A DNA stretch of 64,000 bases from Actinomyces slackii (GTDB lineage Bacteria; Actinomycetota; Actinomycetes; Actinomycetales; Actinomycetaceae): positions 2,170,001 to 2,234,000 of the forward strand of contig NZ_LR134363.1 in NCBI RefSeq assembly GCF_900637295.1, written 5' to 3'. Positions 25,968-64,000 of the stretch are shown here, in pieces; positions within the stretch are counted from its first letter, which is position 1, and each line of letters begins with the position of its first letter. The notes under the pieces were generated by a model. The model saw only the letters and a list, made by a program, of their open reading frames with translations, did no database searches and had not been told where the DNA came from. A program made the position numbers and the translations under genes.

Positions 25968-25984
25968 AAGCGGAGGCGAGTGTC

Positions 25985-27399: not shown

Positions 27400-27449
27400 C
27401 CTATCGAATCAAAGGAAGACGAAAATCCTCCCCTGTCCGAAAAACACCA

Positions 27450-27685: not shown

Positions 27686-27776
27686 GTTGAGACAACTCAG
27701 GTGCCAGTACGCCACCGGCGTTCGGCGCGACTCGGGCAGCATACGTGTAGTCCGTGAAGCTTGGTGGGGCCAGCCA

Positions 27777-27806
27777 TTGACACCCCAGTGGAGGCGCTGT
27801 TATCAT
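27777..27806 (+). promoter_or_regulatory. Strong sigma-70-type promoter before the PKS cluster
   Basis: A consensus -35 TTGACA (27777-27782) is followed after 18 bases by TATCAT (27801-27806), five of six bases of the -10 consensus. The transcript would carry a leader of about 215 bases before the ABC ATPase gene. The rest of the gene-free stretch 27686-28029 holds a weaker second candidate (TTGCCA with TACACT, around 27893-27920) and no other recognisable feature. Confidence 0.55.
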
Positions 27807-28029
27807 CGAGATGCGTTTCTATAACGTGGGCAACAATCCTTGAATTGATGCCCCCACCCACCCTTACAAGTTGAGAGCACATCCGTCGGTCTTGCCATCG
27901 TCCGCTCGTCTTGTACACTTGCGGCGTGGTGCCCCGTCGGATGGGTCAAGGTATACGCATGACTATGTGTCAGACCGCCACAACCCGTCGCACGGCCACG
28001 TCCCCCATTCGGTGTAAAGGGGGTGACTC

Positions 28030-28932
28030 ATGTCGCTGGTCATTGAGACGCGTTCACTAACCAAGAGTTACGGAAAATCCCGTGGTGTCGAGGATGTCAA
28101 TCTCGCCGTCGAGAGGGGTGAGGTCTTCGGCTTCATCGGCCCAAATGGCGCGGGAAAGAGCACGACTATCCGAACACTTCTCGGCTTCCTGAAGCCCACG
28201 AGTGGGAGCGCTAAGGTTTTGGGTTACGACGTGGTCGAGGAGTCTCGCGAAATCCACAAGAGAATCGGCTATCTCCCTGCAGACGTCAGCCTCTACGATG
28301 ACATGACGGCGGGTGAGTTGCTTGATTTGTCTGCGAGGTTCCACGATGTCGATGGGTCTGAGAAGATAAAGGAACTCAGTTCACGGCTGGATCTCAACCT
28401 GTCGAAGAAGTTCCGTTCGCTGTCGACAGGAAACAAGAAGAAGGTCGGGATCATCCAGACCATTCTTCACGATCCCGACTTGCTCATCTTCGACGAACCC
28501 ACCAGTGGCTTGGACCCTTTGGTCCAAAACACCTTCTACGAGATTCTTCGCAACGAACAAGGCGCTGGCAAGACCGTCTTCTTCTCGTCCCACGTTCTCA
28601 GCGAGGTGCAGCGACTCTGCAACAGGGTCGCGATCATCAGGGAGGGCAGGCTCGTCGCGGTCGAGGAATTGTCCGAGCCCGGCGCTGCCCAGTACAAGTC
28701 GGTTCGAGTCCGGTTCCGCGACCCTGACGTGAAACCGGAGTTCGCGGGGGCCAATTCCATGGAGAAGACAGAACTTGGGTACAAGTTTATGATCCAGGGT
28801 GATGTCAATCGACTGCTCGGCTGGCTCGCCGGGCATGAGGTCGAGGAACTGACAATCGAAGACCCGCCTCTCGAGGAAGTCTTCTTGAACTTCTATTCGG
28901 GCGATGACAAGACTCAAGGGAGGGGGGTCTGA
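28030..28932 (+). CDS. ABC transporter ATP-binding protein
   Basis: This is a DrrA-like ATPase of 300 residues, probably energising export of the cluster's product or self-protection. It has Walker A GPNGAGKST near residue 39, the signature-like LSTGNKKK (the usual Gln and Arg of LSGGQ/R altered), Walker B LLIFDEPTSGLD and the switch His in FFSSHVLSEV. The C-terminal 80 residues form an accessory domain. The start follows AAGGGGGTGA. The permease gene follows after one base, so the two form a transporter. Codon use is less GC-extreme than in the core genes. Confidence 0.9.
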   Translation: MSLVIETRSLTKSYGKSRGVEDVNLAVERGEVFGFIGPNGAGKSTTIRTLLGFLKPTSGSAKVLGYDVVEESREIHKRIGYLPADVSLYDDMTAGELLDLSARFHDVDGSEKIKELSSRLDLNLSKKFRSLSTGNKKKVGIIQTILHDPDLLIFDEPTSGLDPLVQNTFYEILRNEQGAGKTVFFSSHVLSEVQRLCNRVAIIREGRLVAVEELSEPGAAQYKSVRVRFRDPDVKPEFAGANSMEKTELGYKFMIQGDVNRLLGWLAGHEVEELTIEDPPLEEVFLNFYSGDDKTQGRGV

Positions 28933-28933
28933 C

Positions 28934-29743
28934 GTGCATGGGGTCCTTTTCCGCACGGACGTTCGTCGTCACCGCACCTCGTTCATCGTCTGGGCGTTGA
29001 TCTTGCCACTCATGAGTATTTTCCGCATGGCGGGATACCCTGAGTTCTACGAAAAGTACGGTTTTGCCAAGGAGGCTCTGCAGGAGTTTTCGCCGGCGGA
29101 AGTGGCAATGTTCGGCCTTGCCGGCGTCGACATGACCAGCATCACCGGGTACTATGGGGCTCGTGTCTTCTCGGTCCTAGTACTCTTGGGCGCGGTTTAC
29201 TTGATCATGCTGGGCGCAACGATCTTATCCAAGGAAGAAGACGACAACACAATCGAGTACCTGTTGGTGCAGCCACTGAGTCGTACCGCGATCGTGGTGA
29301 CGAAGGTCGCAGTGGTCATTTTCTATGCTGTCGCCCTCAACATCGTTCTGTTTCTTGCGTCCTGGGCGATGTGTGTCGCTTTCCAGCAGGACGGGTATTC
29401 CCTGCAGGCGCTCCTCCAACTGGCTCTCGGGTCGTTTCTCGTGCACTTGATATTTGCTGCGATCGGATTCCTTCTGTCGGTCTTCGTAGTGCGTTCCCGG
29501 GTCATTTACCCGCTCACCATCGGAATCTCTCTCGGCGCTTATTTTCTTCAGATGCTTGCGAACTCCAGCGATTCGGCCCAGTGGTTATCGTGGTTCTCGT
29601 TCTTCTCCTACGTCCGAGTCGACGAAGCGACCAAGGGGAGTGCCACGATGGATCTTGCCCATCTACTGGTGTCATTGTTCGTGATCGTCGGATGTTTTGC
29701 CGTTGCAGTATTCGTGTATCGGCGCAAGGACATCTCGGCCTAA
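28934..29743 (+). CDS. ABC transporter permease
   Basis: This is an ABC-2-type membrane protein of 269 residues with about six hydrophobic segments (ALILPLMSIF, LVLLGAVYLIMLGATIL, VVIFYAVALNIVLFLASWAM and others). The loop SKEEDDNTIEYLLVQPLSR is typical of these permeases. The frame is open to 28904, but the GTG at 28934 has AGGGAGGGG upstream and starts two bases after the ATPase stop. It pairs with the ATPase to form an exporter. Confidence 0.88.
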   Translation: MHGVLFRTDVRRHRTSFIVWALILPLMSIFRMAGYPEFYEKYGFAKEALQEFSPAEVAMFGLAGVDMTSITGYYGARVFSVLVLLGAVYLIMLGATILSKEEDDNTIEYLLVQPLSRTAIVVTKVAVVIFYAVALNIVLFLASWAMCVAFQQDGYSLQALLQLALGSFLVHLIFAAIGFLLSVFVVRSRVIYPLTIGISLGAYFLQMLANSSDSAQWLSWFSFFSYVRVDEATKGSATMDLAHLLVSLFVIVGCFAVAVFVYRRKDISA

Positions 29744-29814
29744 CTTGCGAAAGACCCCACGGGCATCATCCGCCAGCGGGGCGGTATAGCGCACCGACAG
29801 CGCTGCGGTCAACC

Positions 29815-29841
29815 GCCGCGTGCTATCTGCGCGGCTTTTTT
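29815..29841 (+). terminator. Intrinsic terminator or attenuator before the PPTase gene
   Basis: GCCGCG pairs with CGCGGC around a 9-base loop and is followed directly by six T residues. It lies 71 bases after the permease stop and only 35 bases before the PPTase ATG. A GCGG/CCGC hairpin just upstream overlaps its 5' arm, so the pair could act as alternative structures. Confidence 0.6.
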
Positions 29842-29876
29842 GGGACCTGTACACGGACCGGAGGTGAGGCACGACT

Positions 29877-30614
29877 ATGTTCGAGAGCACGAGGCGGTTG
29901 CGTTTGTCGCGCTCGGGCCGTCAGTCGGAAGCGACCATTAGTTGCGTTCTCGTCGGCGACTGGTCGTCTTTTGTGGAGTCATTGCACCCCTACGAGTGGG
30001 AGCAGTTGGGGCGCGCGAGGTCCGACAAGAGGCGGTCGGATTTCGTGGCTGGGCACCATGCAGCTAAATTGGCGATCTGCGCGCAGCTCGCGACGTGGCT
30101 TCGTCCTTCTTCAATCCTCATCGAGCCTGGTGTGTTCGGACAGCCGATCGTCCGCTGCCCTGAGTCGGCGAGGGTCGGGGTCAGCATCGCTCACAGCGGC
30201 GGATGCGCCGTGGCGATCGCTTTCGACGTCGGGCATCCCATGGGAATCGACATTGAGTTGATCAATCGGAGGCGGGAGGCCACCCTGCGATCCCAAGTGG
30301 TCGACAGCGAGGTCAGTTTGTGCCTCGCACACCGGGTGTCGATGCTCGAGATGAGTACCCATCTGTGGTGCGCCAAGGAGGCGGTGGGTAAGGCGATGCT
30401 CACGGGACTGACCGTGCCGTCCTCGCTGCTCGAGGTGTCGTCCGTGGTCGCAGATCATGATGGGTACCGCATCCGGTTCCGGAATCTCATCCAGTACGGG
30501 GCCAGGGCGGTTCGAATCAGAAACTACGCGGTGGCTCTGGGCCATCCGCGCGACACGGAGCTCCAAGGACTCGACTCAACGAAGGCACTCGTCGCGGGGG
30601 TGGCCCATGCGTGA
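29877..30614 (+). CDS. Sfp-type 4'-phosphopantetheinyl transferase
   Basis: This enzyme, 245 residues, would convert apo-ACP domains of the PKS to the holo form using coenzyme A. The family motifs are GVSIAHSGG near residue 101, GIDIELI near 122 with the Mg-binding acidic residues, and WCAKEAVGKAM near 163. It starts after GGAGGTGAGG. Its last eight bases overlap the next gene, so translation with the trans-AT protein is probably coupled. Its presence inside the cluster supports a dedicated activation step. Confidence 0.9.
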   Translation: MFESTRRLRLSRSGRQSEATISCVLVGDWSSFVESLHPYEWEQLGRARSDKRRSDFVAGHHAAKLAICAQLATWLRPSSILIEPGVFGQPIVRCPESARVGVSIAHSGGCAVAIAFDVGHPMGIDIELINRRREATLRSQVVDSEVSLCLAHRVSMLEMSTHLWCAKEAVGKAMLTGLTVPSSLLEVSSVVADHDGYRIRFRNLIQYGARAVRIRNYAVALGHPRDTELQGLDSTKALVAGVAHA

Positions 30615-33600
30615 CTGGGCATTCATCTTTCCCGGGCAGGGTTCCCAGTTCCCCGGCATGGGGCACGACCTTTGGCTTCGGTTTCCCGAGTTCAGAAGGG
30701 ACATGCAGCAGATCGACACCGTGGTGCGGGATTACCGCGGCGACGGGTTCTTGGACGCGCTGTATGGTGATGAGTGGGCCAACGCCGTGACGGATCTTCG
30801 CGTGAGCCATCCGGCGATCTTCTCGCTCCAGTACTCCGTATCGCAACTCCTGATCCGACGCGGGGTGCAGCCGACCTGCTTGGTGGGGGCCAGCCTGGGA
30901 GAGGTGGCAGCGGCCACGTTCGCCGGCGGGTTCGGGGCCGAGACGGCAGTCAGAATGATCTGTGAACAATCCGATCGAATTGTCGAGCAGTGTTCCCCGG
31001 GCGGGATGATGGCCGTGTTTGCCCGTCCGGAGGTATGGCACGATGGCATCGCCCCCCGACACGAGTGCGACCTCGTGTCGGTGAACGGGCCGGAGCACTT
31101 CGTCGTGACGGGAGGGCTGGACAACCTCAAGTCATTGCAGGCCGAACTGGATGCCGCCGCCGTCAACTACGTCGCGCTGCCGGTGAGGTATCCGTTCCAC
31201 TCAAGACGGCTTGACTCCCTGAAGCCTCCAACCCGCACGGAAGCGAGTGCGGGATCGTCACTGCGAGTGCCCTTCTATTCGTGTGCCGCTGGTGGACGAG
31301 TAGACTCGCTCGAGCCCGGCCACTGGTGGCGCGTCTTCCGAGAACCGATCAGGGCAGCGACCGCCTTGCGGGCAATGGCCCAGTCGGGGCGGTATCGCTG
31401 TGTCGAGATCGGACCGGGAACCTCGATGTCCGCGATCCTGCGCCAGCACTCCATTCCCACCGAGTCCAGTCACGCCCTGGTGACGCCATTCATGAACAGC
31501 AGCCACATGGTCGAGAAGTTGTCCACGTTGTCCGACCAATACCCCACGGGGAGGGACCGACGCGCCTCCACCGCCCCCCAATCCGTCGACACCACTACAG
31601 AGGAGCTCCGTCTCATGTCACCACAACCGTCCGGGAAACCCGATGGCAATGAATTGCTCGCCTACGTCTTCCCAGGCCAGGGTTCACAGTCCATCGGTAT
31701 GGGCCATGAGCTCTTTGACCAGCACTCGGAAGAGCTCGCCCAGGCCGATCGGATCCTCGGCTGGTCGGTGAAGGAGTTGTGCCTCGCCGGTCCGAAGGAT
31801 CGCCTAGACAACACGGAGTTCACGCAGCCAGCCCTCTACGTCGTCAATGCGTTGAGCTATCTCAGTAAGATAGCGAACGGTGCGCCCCTTCCCGACTTCG
31901 TCGCGGGACACAGCTTGGGTGAGTACAACGCGCTCCATGCGGCAGGGATTGTGGACTTCGCCACGGGGCTGTCCCTCGTGAAGATCCGAGGTCAGTTGAT
32001 GGCTCGGGCCCGTGGCGGAGGAATGGCCGTGGTTCTGGGACTTGGCGAAGACGCTGTGGCCGCAGTCCTCGCCAAGGGCAGCCAGCAGGGCGTCGACATC
32101 GCCAACCTCAACTCGCCCGAGCAAGTCGTCATCTCCGGAATGCGTGAAGAGGTGCTGGGTTGCGAGCAGCTCTTCACGGCGGCGGGCGCACGCTTCGTGC
32201 CGCTCAACGTCAGCGGTGCGTTCCACTCCCGCTACATGCGCGATGCGCGGGAGCAGTTCGAGCAACAGCTGAAGGGTATTTCCTTTGGGAGGCCTTGTTG
32301 CCCAGTCATCTCAAACGTCACCGCTCGCCCCTATGACGCGGACACGGCACGCCTTCTTGCCGAGCAGATCACCTCTCCCGTGCAGTGGGTTGATACGGTG
32401 CGCTACTTGATGCGCGCCGGAGCGACCCTTGAGCAAGTTGGTCCCGGCAACGTGCTGACCGGCCTGACACACGCGATCGTGCGCAGCGACGCGAAGGCTC
32501 AGAACGAGAAGACGACCCGCGCCGAGGGGGTACGTCGATCGGTCAGTTCGGGACAACCAGAGCCGCGCGTCGAGTCCGCCCCCGTGCCAGCGCCCGGAAA
32601 TGAGACGCTCTGCTCGGCATACGGGCTCAAGCATCCCTATGTCACCGGCTCGATGTATCGCGGGATTGCGTCCAAGGAACTCGTTGAGCGTATCGCGCTG
32701 GCCGGCATGCTTGGGTTTGTCGGCACTGGGGGAATGCCGCTGTCCGAGGTCGGCGTTTCAATCGACTACCTCCAGCGGCGGCTTCCGGCGGGGACGCCGT
32801 TTGGGTTCAACCTTCTGCACAGCCACGGTGATCCTCGACGCGAGGACGAGTTGGTCGATCTGCTGCTCTCGCGAGGCGTGAACGTGATCGAGGCATCCGC
32901 CTTCGTTGATGTGAGTCCGGCCCTGGTCCGGTTCCGACTCAACGGCGCGCACAGGGGTGCGGACGGGCGGATCATCACACCGCACCGGGTCATGGCCAAA
33001 CTCTCCCGCCCCGAGGTCGCCGCCGCGTTCATGAGCCCGCCGCCGGAATCGATCGTCTCGCAGCTCAAGGATGCGGCGGTCATCACGGCCGAGGAGGCGA
33101 GCCTCGCGCGTGACGTGCGCATGGCAGACGATGTCACGGCCGAGGCTGATTCGGGTGGACACACGGACGCTGCGGTCGCCCTCACCCTGATCCCCACCAT
33201 TGCCCGTCTGCGGGACCGCATGCAGGAGGAGTCTCCCCAGTTGCCTCGGGTGCGAGTCGGGGGTGCCGGTGGTATCGGAACTCCTGAGTCTGCGGCTGCC
33301 GCCTACCTGCTCGGCGCCGAATACATCGTCACCGGTTCGATCAACCAGTGCACCGTCGAGTCTGGGGCCAGCGAGGTGATGAAGGACCTTCTCCAGGACA
33401 TCAACGTCCAGGATACCGACTACGCTCCGGCGGGGGACATGTTCGAGCTGGGAAGCCGTGTGCAGGTGTTGCGACGAGGAGTGTTCTTCCCGGCTCGCGC
33501 GAACAAGCTCTACTCCCTGTACCGCCAGTTCGACTCCTGGGAGACGATCGATGTGGACACGCGCCACCAGCTCGAGCAGCGGTACTTCCGTCGCTCCTTC

Positions 33601-33921
33601 GACGGCATCTGGGATGAGGTGAAGTCGCGCGTCAGCATCAACTGCGGGGGAGCGCCCACCGATCGGCAGAAGATGCTGGCGGTCTTCAAGTGGTACCTCG
33701 CCCATTCGACGCAGCTCGCCCTAGCCGGAGACAAGACTCGAGTGGTCGACTTCCAAGTCCACTGCGGACCGGCGTTGGGGGCGTTCAACCAGTGGGTCAA
33801 GGGCACCGAGTTCGAGAGCTGGCGGAACCGTCATGTTGATGACATCGGGATCAAGCTGATTACCGAAATGGGCCGGTTGTTGGATTCGAGGTCACGGGAC
33901 TTCGCAGATTTTGCGAGTTGA
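30607..33921 (+). CDS. Trans-acting acylhydrolase-AT-enoylreductase fusion
   Basis: This 1104-residue protein serves the AT-less PKS in trans. Residues 1 to about 310 form an AT-fold domain with GASLGE (Ser96) in place of GHSLGE and no clear RGxLM arginine, as expected for a proofreading acylhydrolase like PedC. Residues 350-640 are a canonical malonyl-type AT: GHSLGE with Ser436, IRGQLM and GAFHS. Residues 665-1104 are a PfaD-type FMN enoylreductase (GGAGGIGTPESAAAAYLLGA). The order AH-AT-ER is known from other trans-AT pathways. The ATG at 30607 overlaps the PPTase stop; the frame is open further upstream, but the AT domain begins here. Confidence 0.9.
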   Translation: MRDWAFIFPGQGSQFPGMGHDLWLRFPEFRRDMQQIDTVVRDYRGDGFLDALYGDEWANAVTDLRVSHPAIFSLQYSVSQLLIRRGVQPTCLVGASLGEVAAATFAGGFGAETAVRMICEQSDRIVEQCSPGGMMAVFARPEVWHDGIAPRHECDLVSVNGPEHFVVTGGLDNLKSLQAELDAAAVNYVALPVRYPFHSRRLDSLKPPTRTEASAGSSLRVPFYSCAAGGRVDSLEPGHWWRVFREPIRAATALRAMAQSGRYRCVEIGPGTSMSAILRQHSIPTESSHALVTPFMNSSHMVEKLSTLSDQYPTGRDRRASTAPQSVDTTTEELRLMSPQPSGKPDGNELLAYVFPGQGSQSIGMGHELFDQHSEELAQADRILGWSVKELCLAGPKDRLDNTEFTQPALYVVNALSYLSKIANGAPLPDFVAGHSLGEYNALHAAGIVDFATGLSLVKIRGQLMARARGGGMAVVLGLGEDAVAAVLAKGSQQGVDIANLNSPEQVVISGMREEVLGCEQLFTAAGARFVPLNVSGAFHSRYMRDAREQFEQQLKGISFGRPCCPVISNVTARPYDADTARLLAEQITSPVQWVDTVRYLMRAGATLEQVGPGNVLTGLTHAIVRSDAKAQNEKTTRAEGVRRSVSSGQPEPRVESAPVPAPGNETLCSAYGLKHPYVTGSMYRGIASKELVERIALAGMLGFVGTGGMPLSEVGVSIDYLQRRLPAGTPFGFNLLHSHGDPRREDELVDLLLSRGVNVIEASAFVDVSPALVRFRLNGAHRGADGRIITPHRVMAKLSRPEVAAAFMSPPPESIVSQLKDAAVITAEEASLARDVRMADDVTAEADSGGHTDAAVALTLIPTIARLRDRMQEESPQLPRVRVGGAGGIGTPESAAAAYLLGAEYIVTGSINQCTVESGASEVMKDLLQDINVQDTDYAPAGDMFELGSRVQVLRRGVFFPARANKLYSLYRQFDSWETIDVDTRHQLEQRYFRRSFDGIWDEVKSRVSINCGGAPTDRQKMLAVFKWYLAHSTQLALAGDKTRVVDFQVHCGPALGAFNQWVKGTEFESWRNRHVDDIGIKLITEMGRLLDSRSRDFADFAS

Positions 33922-34027
33922 CTGACCACGCTGACGCATGGCATCTGATCGGTTACGCGCCTGGATGACGCAGACGGACTGGATGACTTACTCGAAACCG
34001 ATGATGCAGACCTATAGGAGAAACGTG

Positions 34028-34840
34028 ATGCTGGACTTGGAGACGATTCGGGTGAAACCGACGAGGGAGGGGCGTGGCACCACCGTCCTTTTCGTCCACG
34101 GCGGGTACTTCGCGGCATGGTGCTGGGAGAAGTTCCAGCCGTATCTGGCGGACCGGGGCTACGGCTCGTGGGCGGTCAGTCTGCGGGGACACGGCGCAAG
34201 CCGCACGACGCAGCCGCTCAGATCGCTGAGGCTCGAGCAGTACGTCGAGGACGTCGTTGAGACGTTGAAGGCCATGCCGACGAGACCGGTCGTTGTCGGG
34301 CACTCGATGGGTGGTGGCATCGTTCAGAAGGTCCTTGGCGCTGACGAGGACCTTGTGTCCGGCGTCGTGCTGTTGTCCTCGGTGCCCCCGTCCGGCGTCG
34401 GGGGGAAGGAGGCGCTGGCGTGGACAAAGCTCGGCATGGGGGCCATGGTCAAGCTGTGGAAGCTGCACAGCGGCAAGCTCGGTCCCGAGGATGCTGCTGA
34501 TCGGACGGCCTTCCCCTACGGGATGTTCTTCGCCGGTGATCTCGACAAGGACACGCTCGTCTCGTACGGCAGCCGGATGCAGGGAGAATCACAGCGTGCC
34601 GGAAAGCAACTGTCACGGACGGTTCTGCGGGACCCCAAGTCGGTGGGCGTGCCGGTGGCGGTCATCGGGGGGGAAGAGGACCTGTTCTTCGCCCCGCAGG
34701 TGAATCACGCGACTGCCGATGTCTATGGCGTGGACGCCACCATCGTGTCCGGCGTAGGTCATGCGGCCATGCTCGATTCGAACTGGGTCGCGGTCGCGGA
34801 CCGACTGATCGACTTCCTCGAATCGTTGGAGGAGCGCTGA
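34028..34840 (+). CDS. Alpha/beta-fold hydrolase
   Basis: This is a 270-residue alpha/beta hydrolase with the oxyanion region FVHGGYFAAW near residue 23, the nucleophile elbow GHSMGGG near residue 92 and the catalytic His in GHAAMLD near residue 238. The ATG at 34028 follows AGGAG; a GTG three bases earlier is also possible. It lies after a 106-base gap and is coupled to the next gene (TGATG). It could act in release, editing or tailoring of the polyketide, but the substrate is unknown. It is not the short type II thioesterase form usual in PKS clusters. Confidence 0.82.
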   Translation: MLDLETIRVKPTREGRGTTVLFVHGGYFAAWCWEKFQPYLADRGYGSWAVSLRGHGASRTTQPLRSLRLEQYVEDVVETLKAMPTRPVVVGHSMGGGIVQKVLGADEDLVSGVVLLSSVPPSGVGGKEALAWTKLGMGAMVKLWKLHSGKLGPEDAADRTAFPYGMFFAGDLDKDTLVSYGSRMQGESQRAGKQLSRTVLRDPKSVGVPVAVIGGEEDLFFAPQVNHATADVYGVDATIVSGVGHAAMLDSNWVAVADRLIDFLESLEER

Positions 34841-35694
34841 TGCCGCAGCAAGGAGCTCCTATCTTCGCGTCCCGCACCCGTGCCAGTTCATATGATGCCT
34901 GCTCAATCGGCGCCGGCATCGACGCCGAGACGGCGCGGCTCTCGGCCCAGGTCGACCTCTTCTGGGAGAAGGAGAGAAGGCTCTACGAGTCCTACGGGCT
35001 CGGCGCCGCCCGTCGGGTCGTCGAGTTGGGGTGTGGTCCCGGCTTCGTTCTGCGCCACATGGCCCACGAGTTTCCCGGTCTCGAACTGCACGGGCTTGAA
35101 CTCGATCCCGACCTGGTGGTGCGCGCTCGGGAAATGTTCGCCGAGGAGTCGTTGGACGTGACCGTTCGAGAGGCGAGCATTCTGGACACTGGCTACGAAG
35201 AGAGGGCATTCGACTTCGTGCTCGTGCGACTCGTCCTCGAGCACCTGCCCGATCCCGAGAGGGCGCTGCACGAGATCCTTCGGATCACCAAGCCTGGCGG
35301 ACGTGCAGTCGTAGTGGACAACGACTTCGAGATGCATCTCATGGCGAGCCCGCCAGTGCCGGAGTTGCGCGAGGTGTACTCGGCCTATTGCAGGGCGCGC
35401 GAGGACGAGGGCGGTAACCCACTGATCGGCCGAGACCTTCCGCTGCTCCTGCGCGAGACCGGGTTCGTCGACGTTGACTACGACATCGTGGCGGCGCACA
35501 GTGCGGTGCTGGGTGACGAGATCTTCTCGCGCTCCGAGGGCATCAGCATCCCGTCGCGACTCGTTCAGGACGGCTACCTGAGCAGTTCGACCATGGGCCA
35601 CCTTTCACGACGCTGGCGTGACGTTGTGCGAAGTCCCCGACATGCCCAGATCCGACAACTTCATGTGAGCGCCGCCAGACGACCGACAATCTGA
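34840..35694 (+). CDS. SAM-dependent methyltransferase
   Basis: This is a class I methyltransferase of 284 residues. The SAM-binding motif VELGCGPGFVL is at about residues 61-71, the acidic strand end is LELDPDLV, and post-motifs include LVRLVLEHLPDPE and LRITKPGGRAVVVD. It is stand-alone, unlike the two methyltransferase domains inside the PKS, so it may methylate an oxygen or carboxylate of the product. It overlaps the hydrolase stop by one base. Confidence 0.85.
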   Translation: MPQQGAPIFASRTRASSYDACSIGAGIDAETARLSAQVDLFWEKERRLYESYGLGAARRVVELGCGPGFVLRHMAHEFPGLELHGLELDPDLVVRAREMFAEESLDVTVREASILDTGYEERAFDFVLVRLVLEHLPDPERALHEILRITKPGGRAVVVDNDFEMHLMASPPVPELREVYSAYCRAREDEGGNPLIGRDLPLLLRETGFVDVDYDIVAAHSAVLGDEIFSRSEGISIPSRLVQDGYLSSSTMGHLSRRWRDVVRSPRHAQIRQLHVSAARRPTI

Positions 35695-35708
35695 CAGGAG
35701 ATTGACAA

Positions 35709-55100: not shown

Positions 55101-58100
55101 CGGGGCTACTCCACTTCACCTTGCAGAACCCGTACCTGCCCTTGGATGGGTCCCGATTCCGTCTGGGGATCGAGACCGGCCCATGGCGGGCGGCGGTCGA
55201 CCACGGCGGCGTCGCGTTGCCTCTCCGAGCGGGTGTGTCATCGTTCGGCTTCGGAGGTGCCAATGCGCACGTCATCGTCGAGGAGGCGCCTCCGCAGGAG
55301 GTTCCGATCGGAGGCGGTTCTCGCCAGCTCGTGGTGTTGTCGGCGCGGACCGAGGATCGTCTGCGGGACTATGCGGCGCGCATGTCCGAAGCTCTCAGGA
55401 GCGCGAGATACGGAGGGGGGCCGGCCGGGGTCACCCTCGAGGACGTGGCCTTCACCCTGCAAGTGGGGCGGCACCAGATGGGCGAGCGGCTGGCCTTCGT
55501 AGCGTCGACCCTCGGGGAGGCGGCGGAGAAGCTGTCGACGTTTGCCGCAGGCACCACGCCGGCGATGGCCGTCACGAACTCGTCGGCTTCCGGAGAACTG
55601 GACTCTGTCAAAATCGACGTCAGCCGCGGGCAGGTCGCGTCGCTGTGGCGGACGCAGCGTGTGGAGGAGCTGGCCGACCTGTGGGTGCGGGGCCTCGGCA
55701 TCGACTGGGGCTCGTTGGATCGCACGAGTGAGCCTCGCCGCGTGCCGCTGCCCAGTTATCCCTTCGCGCGCACCCGGTACTGGTTCGAGAGCACCCCTTC
55801 CGCTCCCAGTTCGGCGTTGCCAGTGTCCGTTGACCCGCTGTTGTCGATCCTGCGCGAGCCGTGCTGGGTCGAAGCGGCGCGTTCCTCGCAAGGTGGGCAA
55901 CGACGTTCCGACAGAGCCTGGATTGTGAGCAGCGGTCAGGGAGCCGCGTTGGCCCAAGAGATCGCCGTCCGGTATACGTCCGCGACCTTCCACGACTACC
56001 TGGCGGGGGACACCCCCGGCCCCTCCGAGGACGTCTGGTTCCTGGGCGTCCATGAGGCGGACGAGGTACTCCCCGGCAGTGAGGAATCGGATTCGGCTTT
56101 GGGCTTGCTCAGGCTGATCAGGGGCATGGACGCGGCGGGCTTGTCCGAGACACCCGTCCGCCTCTGGGTGGTCACCCGTGATGTCCACCGCTCCATCGGC
56201 GGACCTGCCGCTCCCTACGCGGCCGCCTGTGTGGGACTCGCCCGATCGGCTGCGCGTGAACACCCTGCATGGGAAGTGGTGATCGCCGACATCGACGGCG
56301 CACAGCCTTCGCCGCGCAACGTCGACCTTCTGCTGGGACAACCCATTCCGTTCGGCGAGGAGGTCCGCATCGAAGGGACCAGGCTGCTCGTCAGGGCTTT
56401 GCGCCCCGTCACTGTCGAGGACGCTTACCGCAGTCCGTTCCGCTCGCAGGGCGTCTACCTCATCGTGGGGGGAGCCGGGGGCGTCGGCTCGCTTCTGGCG
56501 CGCCATCTGGCGAAGGCCTGTGGCGCCAAGGTCGCGCTGCTCGGCCGCGCCGCCGTGGGAGCAAGCCATCGTGAGCTGCTGGACACCATCCAGGCGGAGG
56601 GCGGCGAAGGGCTCTACATCCGTTGCGATGTCACCGACCGTGAGCAGGTGCGTCGAGCGATCGAGACCACCAAGAACGGGTTCGGCCGTCTGGACGGCGT
56701 GATCCACTCGGCCATGGTCCTGCGCGACCAGACGCTGAGGTCGATGACCGACGGCGATCTCCGTGACGTCTTTGCTCCAAAGGTCGCCGGACTGGTTGCC
56801 CTGGCCGACGCCCTTCGGGGGGAGTCGTTGGACTTCCTGCTCTTGATGTCCTCTGCCCAGACCTTCATCGGCGCCGCGGGACAGGGCAACTATGCTGCCG
56901 CGTCGCAGTTCGAGGACGGGTACGCTCAGTGGCTGCGCGTCGGGGCGCCGTGGCCGGTCAAGGTCGTGAACTGGGGGTACTGGGGTGCGGTGGGCGCAGT
57001 GTCCGCGCCGTCCTATGCGCGGCGGCTGGGCGAACAGGGAGCACAGCCAATCGAGCCGAGTTCTGGGCTGGAGGTCGTGACTCGACTGTTGGCCAGCGAC
57101 AGTGTCGACCAGGTCATGGCGGCCCAGGTCGACACGGAGAAACTGGGCCAGTATGTGCGCCTGACCGACGGCAAGTCGGAAGGTCCAGCCGACGACCCCG
57201 GCCCCGATCTTCGCACGGCCCTGGCAGATGCACCCAGGCTCGACGGGGAGACCCTTCGCGACGCCGAGGCGGCGTGGACTGGCCTGGCGGACCTTGCGCG
57301 CCGTTGGCTGCGCGTTGTGGCCACCTCCTTGTGCGTCCCAGCGGGAGATGTTGGTGGGTCGTTGTCTGCGCGCCTGCGCGAATGGCCAGACAGGGCAGCC
57401 GAGCATGATCGGCTGGTTGCGGCGATGGCCGCCATCTTGGACCGGGACGCCCAGGATCCGAGACCTGACGAGGACCTTCGCCTGACGGCGCTTCGAGAAG
57501 ACGGGCGTCGCCTCGCGGACGAGTATCCGGGGGTTCGGGCGCACGTCCGCCTTCTGGAGGCGTGTATGGACCGCTACCCGGAACTCCTCAAGGGCGAGGT
57601 CACCCCCACGGAGGTCATGTTCCCAGGCGGGCGAGGGGATCTGCTCGAGGAGGTCTATCGCGGGGACGCGATCACTCATCACTTCAACCGCCTGGTGTCC
57701 CACACCATCAGGGCCGCGGTACGCGACCGATTGGCCCGCGGTTGGGACTCGATCCGGATTCTCGAGGTCGGGGCGGGCACGGGTGCGACCACCGAGGTCA
57801 TCCTGGGAGGACTGGGGGAGGACCTCGCGCACGTCTCCTACGAGTTCACCGACATCTCTGCCCAGCTGGTGGCCCAGGCCAAGGCGCGGCTGGGCGCCAG
57901 GTACCCCCGAATGCAGTTCGGCATCCTCGACATCGAACGCGACCTCGCTGAGCAGGGCCGGGACGGGAGCGACTTCGACCTCGTGGTTGCGACGAACGTG
58001 CTCCATGCGACATCCGACGTTGCCGTATCGGTTGGCCGGGTGCGGGAATTCCTCCGCCCCGGGGGGTGGATCATCCTCAACGAGGGAACGCGCATCCACG

Positions 58101-61100
58101 ACTACGCGACGCTGACCTTTGGCCTCTTCCCCGGTTGGTGGAGCAGCAGGGATCAGCACCGCCGATTGCCCGCGTCCCCGATGATCGACCGCAATGGCTG
58201 GCTCGAGGTGCTTGCGTCCTCCGGCTTCGCTTCGTGCGAAGTCCTCGGTCTTGGGCCCGATGCGCCCAAGACGCTAGCGGACCAGCAAAGCGTCATCGTA
58301 GCGGTCGCGTCCGGCGAACCCGAGCTGGTCGCGGCGCAGCCGCAATCGTTGTTGTCCGGGCAGGGGGCGGAGACGACCGCCCCAGCTCCGGCGGTGCCCC
58401 CGCCGGACGATGGGGATGAGGCGCTCACGTCATGGGTCACGCAGACCGTCGTGGGAATCATTGCCGACATCCTCCATGTGGGCGAGGCCGACTTCGATCT
58501 CGACGCGCCACATGCCGATCGGGGGGTGGACTCGGTGATGGCGATCGAGATCACGAACGTCATCAACGAGACCATGAAGATCCGAATCAGGTCGACCGAC
58601 CTGTTCAACTACCCAAGTCCCCGCGAGCTCGTGGCCCACATCTGCCGAGAACACGGTGCGGCGCTGGCGTCGCGGGTTCCGCGGTCTGAGGGAACAGCCG
58701 CGCCCGCTCAACGTGAAGTCACGGCCGATGGGCCCGTATCCCCCGCGGGTCCGAAGGCGCTGGACATCGCGGTGGTCGGCATGTCCGGCCAATTCGCCGG
58801 TGCCCGCGCCCTAGACGAGTTGTGGGCCAACCTTTGCGCGGGGCGTTGTTCCGTGGGCGAGAGCATCCACTGGGGTTCCGACAACCCCTATGACCGTCAC
58901 CATCCGGGGATCTCGTACAGCAGGAGGGGCGGCTTCCTGGACAAGGTCGATCGGTTCGACCCGCTGTTCTTCAACATCTCACCGCGTGAAGCCGAGGTGA
59001 TGGATCCCCAGCATCGGCTGCTCCTCCAGGAGTCGTGGCGCGCGATCGAGGACTGGGGACACTCGCCGGACTCGTTGCGTGGAAGCTCGTGTGGCGTCTA
59101 CGTCGGCTTCAACGGCAGTGACTACTACCGTCTGGTCGACGATAGCGTGGAGCACCCCGATTCGCACGCCTTCGTCGGGAACAGTGAGGCGATCCTCGCT
59201 GCGCGGCTGTCGTACTGCTTGGACCTACGCGGTCCGAGCGTCACCGTCAACACCGCCTGCTCGTCATCCCTGGTAGCTGTTGACACGGCATGCCGGGCTC
59301 TCAGGGACGGCAGCATCGATTCGGCCCTGGCCGGCGGGGTCATGATCATGACGACGCCGTTCTTCCACCATCTCGCCAGCAGCGCCGGGATGATTTCGCC
59401 GTCGGGGTTGTGCCGGACGTTCTCCGATGATGCGGACGGATTCATCCCCGGCGAAGGCGTGGGCGTGGTCGTGCTCAGGCGGCTGGAGGATGCCGTCGCC
59501 GACGGTGACCACATCTACGGGGTCATCGTGGGGTCGGGAACGAATCAGGACGGTCAGACCAACGGGATCATGGCGCCCAGCGGGCCCTCGCAGACCCAGC
59601 TCGAACTCTCTGTCTACGAGCGGTATGGGATCGACGCGTCCGACATCACCTACGTGGAAGCGCACGGTACGGGCACGCGTCTGGGCGACCCGATCGAGGT
59701 GGACGCGCTGACGGATGCCTTCCGTGTGCACACCAAGGCCAACGGCTACTGCGAGATCGGTTCGATCAAATCGAACATCGGCCACACGCTGGCCGCCGCG
59801 GGAGTTGCGGCGCTCATCAAGACACTGATGTGTCTGGATCATCGCATGCTGGTCCCGACGGTGAATGTCACACGTGAGAACAGCCTCATCGACTTCGAGA
59901 ACTCGCCCTTCAGGGTGAACCAGCGCCTGCACGCGTGGGAGACGCCGAATGGGCGCCAGCGAATGGCCGCGATCAGTTCCTTCGGATTCTCCGGGACCAA
60001 CGCGCACCTGGTGGTGCGCGAAGCGCCTGGCACGCAGGAACAACGTCAGTCTCGACGTGCCGCCCACCCAGTTCCCGTCTCCGCGCGATCGCAGGGCGAT
60101 CTCCGGCACAAGTTGGTCGAGCTGGCCCAGTGGATCGACCAGAATCCGGACGCCGACCTGCGCGACCTCGCGTTCACCTTGGCGGTCGGACGGTCGCACT
60201 TCTCGTACCGGGCTGGATGGGTCGTTTCGAGCGTCGCGGAGCTGAGGAGCCTGGTCCTCGCGCGGGCCGAGGACGATTACCGCGAGGTGGACAGTTCGGC
60301 GGCCTCGACGGACGTGGAGGCCGCGATGCGCGACTTCCTGGCTGGCGGTGTGGTCGATTGGGAGGTCCTGTTCCGGGACGAGTCACCCCAGCGACTGTCA
60401 TTGCCGACGTATCCCTTTGGGGGGGACAGCTACTGGGCCCCCACGAACGTGTCCATCGCGGTGGGAACGGAGGGCCCCTCCGGGCGCCCGCAGCGTCTCC
60501 ATCCGCTGCTGCACGTGAACATGTCTACGTTCGATCACTGCGCCTTCATGACGCATCTGACGCGCGAGGAGGGCGTGGTGCGTGACCACATCGTCGCTGG
60601 CAACCCCACCGTTCCGGGCGTTGCTCAGATCGAGATGGTCCGGGCTGCCAGCGAGATCGCGACCGGTGCGCCAGTTCATGTGATTAGGGGGATCGTCTGG
60701 TCGCGGCCCATCGTCGTCCCCCGTGGGGGCATCACTGTCGAGACCACGATCTCAATGCGCCGTGGGGGATCCCTCGACTTCACACTCGCCAGCCAGGACG
60801 GACGCGTGGTTCACAGCCAGGGACGCGTGTTTGTGGACGACGCGGTGGTATCGGAACCCGCTCGCGTCGATCTGGAACGGCTGCTGTCGTCTGCAACGCG
60901 TCCGCCCACCGACGGCCAGAACATCTACGAGTCGTTTGGCCGGCACGGGTTGCACTATGGTCCTGCGCTGCAAGCGATCGAGACCCTGTACCACGTGGAT
61001 GGCGGCGTGCTGGTCCGGCTCCATGCGCCGTCGGATGAAGCCCTTGTCGACTGCGTGCTCAACCCCGCCGTGATGGACGGGGCGCTACAGGGCGGCATTG

Positions 61101-61450
61101 GGGTTCTCGACGAGGGCGAACTGGCCCACAGCTCGCGTCCCAGCGTGCCGTTCGATGTCGGACGCATTGACATACTGGCTGCCACCCCGGCCACTGGCTG
61201 GGCCCTGGTTCGACCGTCATCAACCCCTGCAAGCCAGGGCGGGCACCGGTTCGACGTGCGCATCGTGGATGATCAGGGGGCCACGAGGGTCGCCTTCCAC
61301 GACTTGACCATGAGGCAGCAATCCACGGCCACGAACCGCCTCGACGGGCAGCACGAGGAGCCGGATCCATTGGAGGATCTGCTCTCCAAACTGTCTAGGA
61401 GAAAGATCACTGTGACGGACGCCCGCAAACGAGTGGAGGAAATGGCATGA
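49166..61450 (+). CDS. Trans-AT polyketide synthase, second protein
   Basis: This 4094-residue PKS overlaps the previous gene by ATGA. It begins with a docking helix pair (1-45) and a degenerate DH-like domain (Asp220 kept, HRGLNPFDSRP in place of HxxxGxxxxP) completing the split module of KS4, then ACP (Ser361). Next come KS5 (Cys606, His741), KR (Tyr1355, Asn1359) and ACP (Ser1518); KS6 (Cys1774, His1909), KR (Tyr2576, Ser2580), C-methyltransferase (GAGTGA near 2869) and ACP (Ser3123); and KS7 (Cys3365, His3500) with DH (His3808, Asp3971). It ends in a docking tail (4066-4094). The ketoreductase of the last module sits on the next protein. Confidence 0.93.
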   Translation: MNTRPSDFRSEVLRQTLREVRDGRMSNREAKRILEFGSDSPSATIGYAAPRVRDHRGLNPFDSRPGTRVVLGLTWCAMAITTLMRAQGGAVGLRSVSFDRPVLLDGEDAEVIAHVETQLATGVVTVETVGPNDPVGTTVASARQCDAGAAESVDLEAARDGLQEVDAHRLATRVEGQRGPSLQCIRRLWSGQGRVVAELEMSDELELDASCLAVDPSLLDAGYVASLELVDGDGEHGDLDGATGVWIPFSIDRVEAHALVGRSSTCVVRNARSRGDIHTCDIALCDDEGRVLLSIVGFTYRFVRYGADFPSVDTSSPGVRDAATMPLRNRVRDFLADKLWQRNGHVDVLDDETFMSNGMESMELIELARSIEDDLGVALYPTLFFEHQTLTELVEWFAENHASAFEQFADSDAPAPQATSRPAEAGPRPAPEPAAHSADIAIIGMAGRFAGSPDLDSFWENLSASRNLISEVPSDRWDWRDWFDEDPTSAGRTYSRWGSFIDVAQFDAQHFGVSPREARWMDPQLRLLLEVCHQAVEAAGMGGRLKGTTTGTFVGSCFTDYWDEVVRARVPIQDYQAASGLFSALAGRLSYTFDLHGPSVTVDAACASSLTALHLAMASLRLGESETALVAGVNLVLSPLHHVAAAKAMALSPSGQCHTFDARADGYVPGEGVAAVLLKPLDAAIRDHDPIQGVLKGSATNHNGRSNNPTAPSGDAQVAVLEAAWKDAGVDADAITYLEAHGTGTLLGDPVELSAIKQAFLRAEVTSSVCRVGSVKPAIGHLEGAAGLASLIKVVLCMHHGTYVGMSGFEAPNPYLALDDAPFELDVDPQPWTTPYGGPRRAGISSFGLSGTNTHVVVEEAPMRPDPALEQEGASVLLLTAPSEDQLRRWADSVAHHIELERPALSDVAYTLRHGRETHLVRMAVVADRLDVAIGLLRETAPGTVGWETDDETADVRAARAWLEGAPMPRSAPGRMILLPPRPFRPDRHWFPISPTGPDADDATADREESTKDRRTSELYVPGWRAVGPAQRAVGGAVVLLGDQEALGQARTGLRCGQDVRVAEIALAGSDVTLEPSLVDGADVIILWGPAWSLRFGFRLLAELRRRAPRRVVIVHGHEAAQPPHPAAVALGAVTLTPAAIRCPFTVAEVSDSCDPASLVEVALTELSGEGGEVRLESGNRWKRQLTLALARIGGVGPDCPPFDADGPWIVTGGLGALGRLLARHLAERFHAGLVLTGRSAPSQESERVVAEFRSAGAAHCEYCQLDVTDAQAVASLMGDVRARLGRIGGVIHAAGVADGRPWFDKADADIDSVLAPKVLGVRALDEATSTDDLAAFVVFSSASSALGGMGLDDYAAANRYLDAYVTERELRRSAGQRRGRSVSIAWPLWRDGGMHVTNESLYLGASGLDYLETDDALAAFDAVMASDLSHAVVLSGTHEALVRITTPQEGNAEMSEAAQDAGELETDHAENTEIVNDADVLVPWVSERLAAMAAEVLTVQPADIDPHENIGSYGFDSITLKELTRAVQKQLGVVVTPTVFYTYPTLDSVAEFIVRDDPDGIGVARQGRETSPHPPAAERVLETIGEPSSSSASAAVDLGGEANYPVAVIGMAGRFPGADDPHSFWQRLVAGDDLVTEVPTNRWCWEDIYSPERMTPGRTQSKWGAFLEGHDMFDADFFGISPREAELMDPQQRLFLETSWAALEDAGWLPDAVRGRPIGVFAGVQFSEYQSLMDKAGIQRVQVGTGNAHTMIPNRVSYFLDLRGPSESVDTGCSSSLVAIHRAIRALRTGDCEAALAGGVSLVLSPYYHVLSNQAGVLSPTGRCRTFDSSADGYVRGEGVGVLLLKPLQSALRDSDHVYAVLRGSAVNHGGRASSPTAPNAIAQGEVVQRALADARVDPASVTYVEAHGTGTELGDPIEVEGLVRGFTAALESYGDDHVADPGCTLGSVKNQIGHLEPAAGVASLIKVVLAMKHRTLPGLLHFTLQNPYLPLDGSRFRLGIETGPWRAAVDHGGVALPLRAGVSSFGFGGANAHVIVEEAPPQEVPIGGGSRQLVVLSARTEDRLRDYAARMSEALRSARYGGGPAGVTLEDVAFTLQVGRHQMGERLAFVASTLGEAAEKLSTFAAGTTPAMAVTNSSASGELDSVKIDVSRGQVASLWRTQRVEELADLWVRGLGIDWGSLDRTSEPRRVPLPSYPFARTRYWFESTPSAPSSALPVSVDPLLSILREPCWVEAARSSQGGQRRSDRAWIVSSGQGAALAQEIAVRYTSATFHDYLAGDTPGPSEDVWFLGVHEADEVLPGSEESDSALGLLRLIRGMDAAGLSETPVRLWVVTRDVHRSIGGPAAPYAAACVGLARSAAREHPAWEVVIADIDGAQPSPRNVDLLLGQPIPFGEEVRIEGTRLLVRALRPVTVEDAYRSPFRSQGVYLIVGGAGGVGSLLARHLAKACGAKVALLGRAAVGASHRELLDTIQAEGGEGLYIRCDVTDREQVRRAIETTKNGFGRLDGVIHSAMVLRDQTLRSMTDGDLRDVFAPKVAGLVALADALRGESLDFLLLMSSAQTFIGAAGQGNYAAASQFEDGYAQWLRVGAPWPVKVVNWGYWGAVGAVSAPSYARRLGEQGAQPIEPSSGLEVVTRLLASDSVDQVMAAQVDTEKLGQYVRLTDGKSEGPADDPGPDLRTALADAPRLDGETLRDAEAAWTGLADLARRWLRVVATSLCVPAGDVGGSLSARLREWPDRAAEHDRLVAAMAAILDRDAQDPRPDEDLRLTALREDGRRLADEYPGVRAHVRLLEACMDRYPELLKGEVTPTEVMFPGGRGDLLEEVYRGDAITHHFNRLVSHTIRAAVRDRLARGWDSIRILEVGAGTGATTEVILGGLGEDLAHVSYEFTDISAQLVAQAKARLGARYPRMQFGILDIERDLAEQGRDGSDFDLVVATNVLHATSDVAVSVGRVREFLRPGGWIILNEGTRIHDYATLTFGLFPGWWSSRDQHRRLPASPMIDRNGWLEVLASSGFASCEVLGLGPDAPKTLADQQSVIVAVASGEPELVAAQPQSLLSGQGAETTAPAPAVPPPDDGDEALTSWVTQTVVGIIADILHVGEADFDLDAPHADRGVDSVMAIEITNVINETMKIRIRSTDLFNYPSPRELVAHICREHGAALASRVPRSEGTAAPAQREVTADGPVSPAGPKALDIAVVGMSGQFAGARALDELWANLCAGRCSVGESIHWGSDNPYDRHHPGISYSRRGGFLDKVDRFDPLFFNISPREAEVMDPQHRLLLQESWRAIEDWGHSPDSLRGSSCGVYVGFNGSDYYRLVDDSVEHPDSHAFVGNSEAILAARLSYCLDLRGPSVTVNTACSSSLVAVDTACRALRDGSIDSALAGGVMIMTTPFFHHLASSAGMISPSGLCRTFSDDADGFIPGEGVGVVVLRRLEDAVADGDHIYGVIVGSGTNQDGQTNGIMAPSGPSQTQLELSVYERYGIDASDITYVEAHGTGTRLGDPIEVDALTDAFRVHTKANGYCEIGSIKSNIGHTLAAAGVAALIKTLMCLDHRMLVPTVNVTRENSLIDFENSPFRVNQRLHAWETPNGRQRMAAISSFGFSGTNAHLVVREAPGTQEQRQSRRAAHPVPVSARSQGDLRHKLVELAQWIDQNPDADLRDLAFTLAVGRSHFSYRAGWVVSSVAELRSLVLARAEDDYREVDSSAASTDVEAAMRDFLAGGVVDWEVLFRDESPQRLSLPTYPFGGDSYWAPTNVSIAVGTEGPSGRPQRLHPLLHVNMSTFDHCAFMTHLTREEGVVRDHIVAGNPTVPGVAQIEMVRAASEIATGAPVHVIRGIVWSRPIVVPRGGITVETTISMRRGGSLDFTLASQDGRVVHSQGRVFVDDAVVSEPARVDLERLLSSATRPPTDGQNIYESFGRHGLHYGPALQAIETLYHVDGGVLVRLHAPSDEALVDCVLNPAVMDGALQGGIGVLDEGELAHSSRPSVPFDVGRIDILAATPATGWALVRPSSTPASQGGHRFDVRIVDDQGATRVAFHDLTMRQQSTATNRLDGQHEEPDPLEDLLSKLSRRKITVTDARKRVEEMA

Positions 61451-64000
61451 CGACCCCGCTGCCAGTCGACAACATTCTCGCCCGTATCGAGAGTGGCTCG
61501 CTGTCGCCCGCAGACGGCGCGAGCCTCATCCGCTCCCTCCGGGCGGACGGGGAGATCATGGCTCTTGTGGAGGACTGGGTCGACGATGCTCCCGTCGCGG
61601 GCACGGACGTGACCGGCTGGCACGTGCTGCTGGTTTGCGACGACGATGCGCCACAGTCGGATGCGCTCTTGTCGGACCGAGTGGGCGAGGTGACGCTCAC
61701 GAGCGCCAGCAAGGCGGCGGAGAAATTGACCCAGCTGGTGAGGCTGTCCCGAACGCCCGATGCCGTGGTCTGGCTCGGCACACACGGACCCCAGACGGTG
61801 GTCGACCTTACCAGCTTGGTGGGCACCGCCCACGAGGCCATGGACGAGCTCCGATTGGTGTTCGTCGGAGGAGAGGCGTCAACCGTCCAAGGCATCTGGG
61901 GTTGCGCCATCGGGGCATGGGCGCGGAGCGTCGCCCTTGAGTGGTCGGGATTCCATGCCCGTGTGACATGCGGTGGTGATCCGCAGCAAGTGATGGCGAC
62001 GGAGCTGGCCCTCGTGAAGGACACCTTGGGTGTGGAAGAGAGCCGTTGGAGCGGTAATGGCCGGTGCTCGCCTCGGCTGACCGAGATCCCCCTGACCCTG
62101 AACAGGCGCACTCCGCCCCTCGTCCCGGGGGGCGTCTATGTAATCACGGGTGGAACCGGGGGAGTCGGTCGGCACGTCACCGAGTGGGTGACTCGAGCAG
62201 GGGGTCTCGCCGTCGTTGTGTCCAGGTCGGGCGCGCCGACGGACTGGTTGTCCACATTTGGCGGGGCGGTGACGTCGGTGGTCGCCGACCTCGGTGATCG
62301 TGACGGCGTCGCGCGGGCCTTGGCGAAGGCGCGGGAGCTGGGGCCGGTGCGTGGTGTGATCCACGCGGCGGGCGTCCTGCACGATTCATTGGTCTGGGAG
62401 AAGTCCGCCGCCGACATCACCGAGGTGGTGACGACGAAGGCGTGTGCCGGGCTGTGGCTCGACGAGGCGACGGCCGACGACCCCCTCGACTTCTTCGTTG
62501 CCTTCTCGGCGGTGGCTGGATTGCGCGGCAACCTGGGCCAGTCCGACTATGCCTATGCGAATCGGGTGTTGGATGCGCTGATCCAATGGCGTGCCGACCA
62601 TTCAGGCCATCCTGGTGCCTCGCTCTCGATCGCTTGGCCGCTGTGGGCAGATGGCGGGATGCGTCCAGGGCCCGCCGCAGAGCAATACATGCGTCGTACG
62701 GGTGGGCTCTCGTCGCTTGAGACCGGCGAGGGGTTGGCCGTCCTCGGCAGCCTCCTCGACGCCGCGCCGAACCCCACCACCGCTATTCTCAAGGGCGATC
62801 GTCGCAAGATCTCCGATCGTTTCATGGAACCGCCGGGCGAAAACGCCCCCAAGCGACCGACGGCGGTACGGAGCGCTGGGTCTGCCACCATTGCCGAGTC
62901 GGTGGAGCATGACGTGGCTCGGGCGATCGTGACGACCATGCGCGTTCCGCTCGACCAGATCGACCGTTCTTCCGAGTTCGTGGAATTCGGTTTCGACTCG
63001 ATCACCTTCACCGAACTGGCGTCCTGGCTGAACGAACGCTGGGCCCTGGAACTGTTGCCGTCCGTATTCTACGACCACGCCACAGTCGGATCCTTCGTGG
63101 ACTTCGTCGGTGGATGCTTCGGTGACGAGATCGCCGACCACCGAGGCTGGCGGGGTGTCGAACCTGTCCACGCGGTCCAGACGAACGACCTGGTCCAGAC
63201 GAACGACCTGGTCCACACGAATGGAGAGACATTCGCCCAGCCCGTCCCGGCAGCGCTGGACGTGGCTTGCCCATCTGCGTCGGAGGCAGCTGCCGCCGAC
63301 GAGCCCATCGCCGTGGTGGGTTTGGCGGGACGATTCCCGGGCGGTGACATAGAGTCGTTCTGGGAATCGCTGCGCTCTAGGAGAGTCCTGACCAGTGAGG
63401 TCCCGGCTTGGCGCTGGGACTGGCGTGCTTGGCACGGCGCAACGGGTTCGGGACATCGGACCGACGTCCGCTTCGGTGGCTTCATCGAAGGAATCGAGAA
63501 CTTCGACTGTCAGTTCTTCGGCATATCGCCCGCCGAGGCGGACCTGATGGATCCCCAGCAGCGGCTGTTCCTCGAAGTGGTGTGGTCCGCCGTGGAGGAT
63601 TCTGGTCACCGAATCAGCGAGCTCGCGGGCACGAATACCAGTCTGTTCGTGGGCGTCGGAGGATCGGACTACGCCGAGCTCCTTCGGGCGGACGGGGTGG
63701 GCATGATGGCCCATGCGGCCACGGGCTCTGCGCATTCCGTCCTCGCGAACCGGGTGTCCTATCTGTTCGATCTTCGTGGGGTCTCCGAGCCGATCGACAC
63801 GGCTTGCTCCGCCTCGCTGGTGGCGATCCACCGGGCGGTGCAGGCGCTGCGCAACCGTGACTCGGATGTGGCAATCGCGGGCGGGGTCAACGTCTTGTGC
63901 TCCCCAACGGGATTCGTGGCGTTCTCCGAGGCGGGGATGTTGTCACCGGACGGGCTGTGCAAGGCGTTCGACGAGCACGCCGATGGCTACGTCCGTGGCG
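61447..64000 (+). CDS. Trans-AT polyketide synthase, third protein (partial)
   Basis: This is the first 851 residues of a third AT-less PKS, running off the window end. The ATG overlaps the previous stop by four bases. A docking segment (1-32) is followed by the KR that completes the split KS7-DH module. This KR has TGGTGGVG near 235 and Tyr368, but Ala355 stands where the catalytic Ser is expected, next to Ser354. An ACP (Ser518) follows, then a linker with a VQTNDL repeat, and the start of KS8 with Cys787 in DTACSASL. The remaining KS motifs, further modules and any thioesterase lie beyond the edge. Confidence 0.92.
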   Translation, partial: MTTPLPVDNILARIESGSLSPADGASLIRSLRADGEIMALVEDWVDDAPVAGTDVTGWHVLLVCDDDAPQSDALLSDRVGEVTLTSASKAAEKLTQLVRLSRTPDAVVWLGTHGPQTVVDLTSLVGTAHEAMDELRLVFVGGEASTVQGIWGCAIGAWARSVALEWSGFHARVTCGGDPQQVMATELALVKDTLGVEESRWSGNGRCSPRLTEIPLTLNRRTPPLVPGGVYVITGGTGGVGRHVTEWVTRAGGLAVVVSRSGAPTDWLSTFGGAVTSVVADLGDRDGVARALAKARELGPVRGVIHAAGVLHDSLVWEKSAADITEVVTTKACAGLWLDEATADDPLDFFVAFSAVAGLRGNLGQSDYAYANRVLDALIQWRADHSGHPGASLSIAWPLWADGGMRPGPAAEQYMRRTGGLSSLETGEGLAVLGSLLDAAPNPTTAILKGDRRKISDRFMEPPGENAPKRPTAVRSAGSATIAESVEHDVARAIVTTMRVPLDQIDRSSEFVEFGFDSITFTELASWLNERWALELLPSVFYDHATVGSFVDFVGGCFGDEIADHRGWRGVEPVHAVQTNDLVQTNDLVHTNGETFAQPVPAALDVACPSASEAAAADEPIAVVGLAGRFPGGDIESFWESLRSRRVLTSEVPAWRWDWRAWHGATGSGHRTDVRFGGFIEGIENFDCQFFGISPAEADLMDPQQRLFLEVVWSAVEDSGHRISELAGTNTSLFVGVGGSDYAELLRADGVGMMAHAATGSAHSVLANRVSYLFDLRGVSEPIDTACSASLVAIHRAVQALRNRDSDVAIAGGVNVLCSPTGFVAFSEAGMLSPDGLCKAFDEHADGYVRG
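63174..63209 (+). repeat. Tandem 18-base repeat in PKS linker
   Basis: Two exact copies of an 18-base unit (63174-63191 and 63192-63209) and a partial third copy encode VQTNDL twice plus a variant, in the linker between ACP and KS8. This looks like slippage in a flexible linker. Confidence 0.85.

Follow-up and report, generated by a model that had tools for sequence, protein, structure and literature searches.

A complete orphan trans-AT polyketide synthase cluster on an island probably acquired by horizontal transfer in Actinomyces slackii

The chromosome of Actinomyces slackii carries a complete orphan trans-AT modular type I polyketide synthase (PKS) cluster that has very probably been acquired as one block by horizontal transfer. 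The cluster lies on a sharply bounded island of 62 kb (27748-89728), of which two further copies were found, one in A. israelii DSM 43320 (NZ_JONS01000003.1; 97.3% identity over 61,992 bp), the other in Propionicimonas sp. D180_maxbin.014, a MAG of the only distantly related Propionibacteriaceae (NZ_JARKPQ010000005.1; 97.2% identity over 60,127 bp). The window, i.e. the whole stretch of 64,000 nt that was analysed, comprises bases 2170001-2234000 of the single-contig 3.22-Mb genome; all coordinates are given in its frame, and values above 64000 were read from the A. slackii genome beyond it. The original prediction had placed the start of the cluster at 27777, which has to be corrected to 27748, the beginning of the conserved block. 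It had rightly assumed that the cluster runs past the window, and the sequence to the right of 64000 completes the line to PksE. The assignment to an Actinomyces chromosome was borne out by comparison with 49 genomes of the genus, the nearest named cluster match being that of A. israelii.

The line consists of five consecutive, co-directional PKS genes (35709-89522) with 14 KS domains within 36273-85925 (Table 1). The eight KS domains predicted for the window were all recovered with PF00109, the matches starting at 36273, 39576, 43275, 47697, 50480, 53981, 58763, and 63301; each exceeds the curated threshold (E 1e-59 to 1e-93), and the last one crosses position 64000. The release step, which had been out of view, can be assigned to a C-terminal thioesterase (TE) on PksE. 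The PPTase and the exporter were found as predicted (Table 1), and so was a separate AH-AT-ER protein, which has two AT-like stretches and a PfaD-type ER (576 bits to TIGR02814). Its malonyl-AT, with the motif GHSLG, reaches 413 bits with the FabD model, above the cut-off. Its gene probably begins with the ATG at 30607, since the ORF start listed at 30457 falls within the PPTase gene. Genes for a discrete hydrolase and a discrete methyltransferase sit between AH-AT-ER and PksA.

Table 1. Features of the island and its left border (window coordinates)
Feature	Coordinates	Strand	Basis or domain content
IS genes and fragments directly left of the island, outside the cluster	25082..27747		mark the boundary
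Conserved block, probably horizontally acquired	27748..64000, on to 89728 (genome 2197748-2259728)	+	97% matches; flanks unaligned
ABC exporter ATPase	28030..28932	+	PF00005; TIGR01188 (drrA) best but under cut-off
ABC-2 type exporter permease	28904..29743	+	PF12679
4'-phosphopantetheinyl transferase (PPTase)	29877..30614	+	PF01648
AH-AT-ER	30607..33921 (listed ORF from 30457)	+	AH-like AT GASLG, malonyl-AT GHSLG, PfaD-type ER
Discrete alpha/beta hydrolase (candidate esterase)	33938..34840	+	PF12697; weak BioH match
Discrete SAM methyltransferase (UbiE/BioC-like; candidate O-methyltransferase)	34840..35694	+	PF08241; weak UbiE and BioC matches
PksA	35709..49169	+	ACP-ACP / KS1(His->Gln)-MT-ACP / KS2-KR-ACP / KS3-DH-KR-ACP / KS4
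PksB	49166..61450	+	DH(without catalytic His motif)-ACP / KS5-KR-ACP / KS6-KR-MT-ACP / KS7-DH
PksC	61447..73011	+	KR-ACP / KS8-KR-ACP / KS9-DH-KR-ACP / KS10
PksD	72987-85037		DH-ACP / KS11-DH-KR-ACP / KS12-ACP-ACP / KS13-ACP-KR
PksE	85092-89522		KS14-(dead AT)-DH-like-ACP-TE

The domain content points to a trans-AT modular type I PKS. None of the module slices of PksA, PksB, and PksC matched Acyl_transf_1, and a cis-AT profile, built from six cis-AT domains of one Streptomyces, found only linker motifs in PksA-D, in agreement with the earlier claim that the three PKS proteins of the window contain no AT domain. Over all 14 KS modules of PksA-E, Pfam searches revealed no AT core, and a remnant exists in PksE only; malonyl units would therefore come from the discrete AH-AT-ER. 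An apparent AT in module 1 was rejected, as the match comprised the KS end and the linker. In a tree of 79 KSs, which included bacillaene, macrolactin, thiomarinol, two leinamycin-type and other clusters but had few references and many weakly supported forks, KS2-KS13 group with trans-AT KSs, while KS1 forms a long branch of unsure placement. A special kinship of KS1 and KS3 with 7zma was also rejected, the high PDB score being the sum of two KSs in the chain.

KS14 is the exception. It clusters with cis-AT KSs (SH-aLRT 100), and its closest match in the PDB is CurL (487 bits), in contrast to values of at most 362 bits for single trans-AT KSs. The control, KS3, shows the opposite behaviour (PksJ 489 bits, CurL 392 bits). 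The cis-AT profile uncovered an AT remnant at residues 566-786 of PksE, of which the start and the end are recognisable, the middle is shortened, and AEGDG occupies the GHSxG position in all three island copies. The last module, that of PksE, is therefore of cis-AT origin and, its AT having been lost, would have to be loaded in trans. AT domains in downstream PKS genes had been named beforehand as evidence against a trans-AT system; this applies in part only, as what PksE contains is a shortened stretch of about 220 residues that has no GHSxG, and the line is therefore still expected to depend on a trans-acting AT. By sequence, the DH-like domain of PksE is a DH of the CurF/CurK kind with the odd motif HIGYY replacing HxxxGxxxxP; its predicted structure was too poor (mean pLDDT 44) and was set aside.

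In PksA, the starter position is marked by the N-terminal ACP pair and by the unusual KS1, which has EAQGTG where EAHGTG is expected, so that Gln replaces the first catalytic His; KS1 is probably non-elongating. KS4 and KS10 fall in a clade (100/100) of KSs that end one protein, with the next protein opening with a DH; the split-DH KSs of macrolactin and bacillaene are usually taken as non-elongating. These two KSs end their proteins, and the other 12 of the 14 are followed by a RhiE-like linker. KS8 and KS12 group with KSs following DH-KR modules, and KS7 lies near thiomarinol KSs that come after MT-containing modules. Colinearity of the line is plausible, because each placed KS (KS4, 7, 8, 10, and 12) fits its upstream module. 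The number of extensions may range from 11, if KS4 and KS10 are silent, to 13, because both retain the complete Cys-His-His set of catalytic residues.

According to the proposed scheme, the PPTase would arm the ACPs, the starter would be carried on the N-terminal ACP pair of PksA, and KS1 would hand it on without extension. KS2, 3, 5-9, and 11-14 would extend the chain (about 11 extensions), with alkenes predicted in modules 3, 7, 9, and 11, hydroxyls in modules 2, 5, 6, 8, and perhaps 13, and a methyl branch introduced by module 6. The TE would release an acid or a lactone, and the ABC-2 exporter would secrete the product. Two C-methyl branches had originally been predicted; the MT domains in modules 1 and 6 were found, but the branch from module 1 is uncertain, because KS1 probably does not elongate.

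The start of the chain recalls, by gene description and as a lead only, the aurantinin pathway, in which the Art28/Art9 pair acts on malonyl-ACP: methyl esterification starts the chain, and the ester is cleaved later (PMC8302727). Similar are a UbiE/BioC-like methyltransferase, a hydrolase, and an N-terminal ACP, all present as discrete genes or domains in the island; the methyltransferase and hydrolase genes are adjacent, and their matches to BioC and BioH are only weak. The island differs in having two N-terminal ACPs and the unusual KS1.

The cluster could be a decaying, non-functional one, i.e. foreign DNA with edges cut by insertion sequences and with its self-protection gene gone. In the MAG copy, PksE is followed by an intact gene for an ABC-F ATPase of 547 residues, of which a remnant of 211 residues is left in A. 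israelii and one of 30 residues in A. slackii, indicating that both Actinomyces copies lost most of ABC-F to insertion sequences; they would have to be protected by other means, e.g. by the exporter. The transposases on both sides of the island, as well as KS1 and the opening DH of PksB, both without the catalytic His, are also compatible with decay. In contrast, none of the five PKS frames is interrupted in any of the three copies, the altered residues of PksE are common to the three, and dN/dS values of 0.17-0.27 between copies, with 73 to 248 synonymous changes per gene, show purifying selection on the PKS genes. Decay thus appears improbable. The intact ABC-F reaches 264 bits with NF000355 (ARE-type ribosomal protection), so that a resemblance remains, but the curated cut-off is 380, and for this reason a ribosomal target of the product is put forward as a hypothesis only.

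The surroundings of the island are rich in insertion sequences. Transposase genes of several families are dense at 22459-27480 and 90381-98291, and many of them have further copies in the genome. A 1273-bp IS copy (26186-27458) recurs in inverted orientation at 97058-98330 with 100% identity, and the two copies flank the island on both sides, about 71 kb apart, in a composite-transposon-like arrangement.

It was also considered that the cluster is the line of a known compound in a new host, i.e. of bacillaene, macrolactin, thiomarinol/mupirocin, leinamycin, or another one. Single KSs indeed fall in clades of known lines, and the macrolactin, bacillaene, thiomarinol, and leinamycin-type clusters have the trans-AT logic, KS clades, and split KS/DH protein junctions in common with the island. 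However, the module order is unlike that of every one of these references, which represent a part of MIBiG, and their NRPS modules and HMGS cassette have no counterpart among the island genes in domain searches. In addition, the AT-ER is about 50% or less identical to anything besides those of the two other island copies. Judged by the MIBiG clusters compared, a known product is very unlikely. A literature search, of partial coverage so that absence is not proof, retrieved no description of the cluster, and the suggestion that the product may be undescribed agrees with the lack of a characterised match.

The distribution of related systems qualifies the original view that trans-AT PKSs are uncommon in actinobacteria. 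Strong AT-ER matches are present in only 4 of the 213 genomes of the Actinomyces family (two of them representing this cluster) and in 5 of the 198 genomes of the family of the MAG (one representing this cluster). The system is thus rare in the Actinomyces family, but not in actinobacteria at large, as 247 trans-AT regions have been reported for 1034 actinomycete genomes, with 17 MIBiG references (PMC11260486). Clusters homologous to those of bacillaene and pristinamycin have been reported in Propionibacterium propionicum and Actinomyces timonensis (PMC6469967); trans-AT PKSs are hence already known in actinobacteria, and one has been hinted at for another Actinomyces species.

Two other Actinomyces genomes contain a second, different trans-AT cluster (G042:C2:663000-713000, L082-L085; G006:C7 and C21), which may be the one indicated for A. 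timonensis. Its AT-ER is 47% identical to that of the island, and its line likewise ends with KS-ACP-KR, followed by cis-type KS-dead AT-DH-like-ACP-TE, but it differs in its module order, a separate AH gene, and a free-standing KS beside the AT-ER. The AT sites of PksE and of the terminal PKS of G042 (L082) are broken differently and are both dead, and both proteins have HIGYY in the DH-like domain. In the family of the MAG, one protein (G184:C105:9413-12718, L131) is 41% identical to the AH-AT-ER and has the same three-part layout, and may belong to a relative of the cluster.

Comparison of the three copies with their surroundings points to a recent transfer of the island between species. 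The identity to both other copies is even along the length of the island; outside of it, nothing above 80% was found between the window region and the compared A. israelii stretch. The A. israelii cluster is the same 62-kb block with all 14 KSs, but it adjoins tRNA-Val and aceE and has retained a part of ABC-F. The corresponding tRNA-Val/aceE site of A. slackii, about 250 kb to the right of its own copy, lacks the island, and the host DNA is 80% identical, a value for the host divergence that was measured at this one locus only. The GC content of the island is 64-67%, versus mostly 67-73% in the host DNA that was sampled. With 98.6% identity, the A. israelii and MAG copies are closer to each other than to the A. 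slackii copy, which conflicts with the species tree. Recent transfer is concluded from these island identities of 97.2-97.3% versus 80% for host DNA, and from the closeness of the A. israelii and MAG copies. No near copy of the island was present in plasmid and phage collections. An alternative, namely that the cluster was inherited vertically in Actinomyces and lost from the other species, for which the presence in two Actinomyces species could be quoted, can practically be dismissed, barring mislabelled genomes, because the island is far more similar than the host DNA, the chromosomal sites in the two species differ, and the A. israelii copy is nearer to that of the MAG than to that of A. 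slackii.

The MAG contig contains 60 kb of the block with all 14 KSs and begins inside the exporter gene; it differs in having the intact ABC-F as well as a transposase and a large serine recombinase at the right end. As it comprises only the island and the recombinase end, its host is assigned through binning and through the recombinase repeats. A second copy of the recombinase, 98% identical, is present in the same bin, copies of 65-66% identity occur in relatives of the family, and no copy was found in the A. slackii or A. israelii genomes; the copies in bin and family count against misbinned Actinomyces DNA. The tetranucleotide likeness of the island is 0.86 to the MAG versus 0.74-0.80 to the two Actinomyces, but it was set aside as proof of the host, because metagenome bins are commonly made on composition.

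The serine recombinase is found in the MAG copy only, the right ends of the Actinomyces copies have been lost to insertion sequences, and no attachment sites were established. The ABC-F gene was probably a part of the ancestral element, which would have moved among actinobacteria and would later have been trimmed by insertion sequences. The more far-reaching reading, i.e. a mobile element composed of the PKS, its own ABC-F, and the serine recombinase that crosses actinobacterial orders, has also entered a human pathogen, and specifies an undescribed ribosome-targeting polyketide, is conceivable but rather doubtful.

Compared with the original prediction, it is new that the cluster appears to be a recently transferred island, and the evolutionary story is better supported than the chemistry. 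Many antibiotics are polyketides, and inhibition of other bacteria is known for oral isolates of Actinomyces. Very few metabolites of Actinomyces have been characterised (one MIBiG cluster in 2021, PMC8549736), and the intact line shared by A. slackii and A. israelii offers a tangible starting point for tests. The three copies of the island represent a natural experiment on the movement of very large PKS clusters among actinobacteria and on the losses that occur afterwards.
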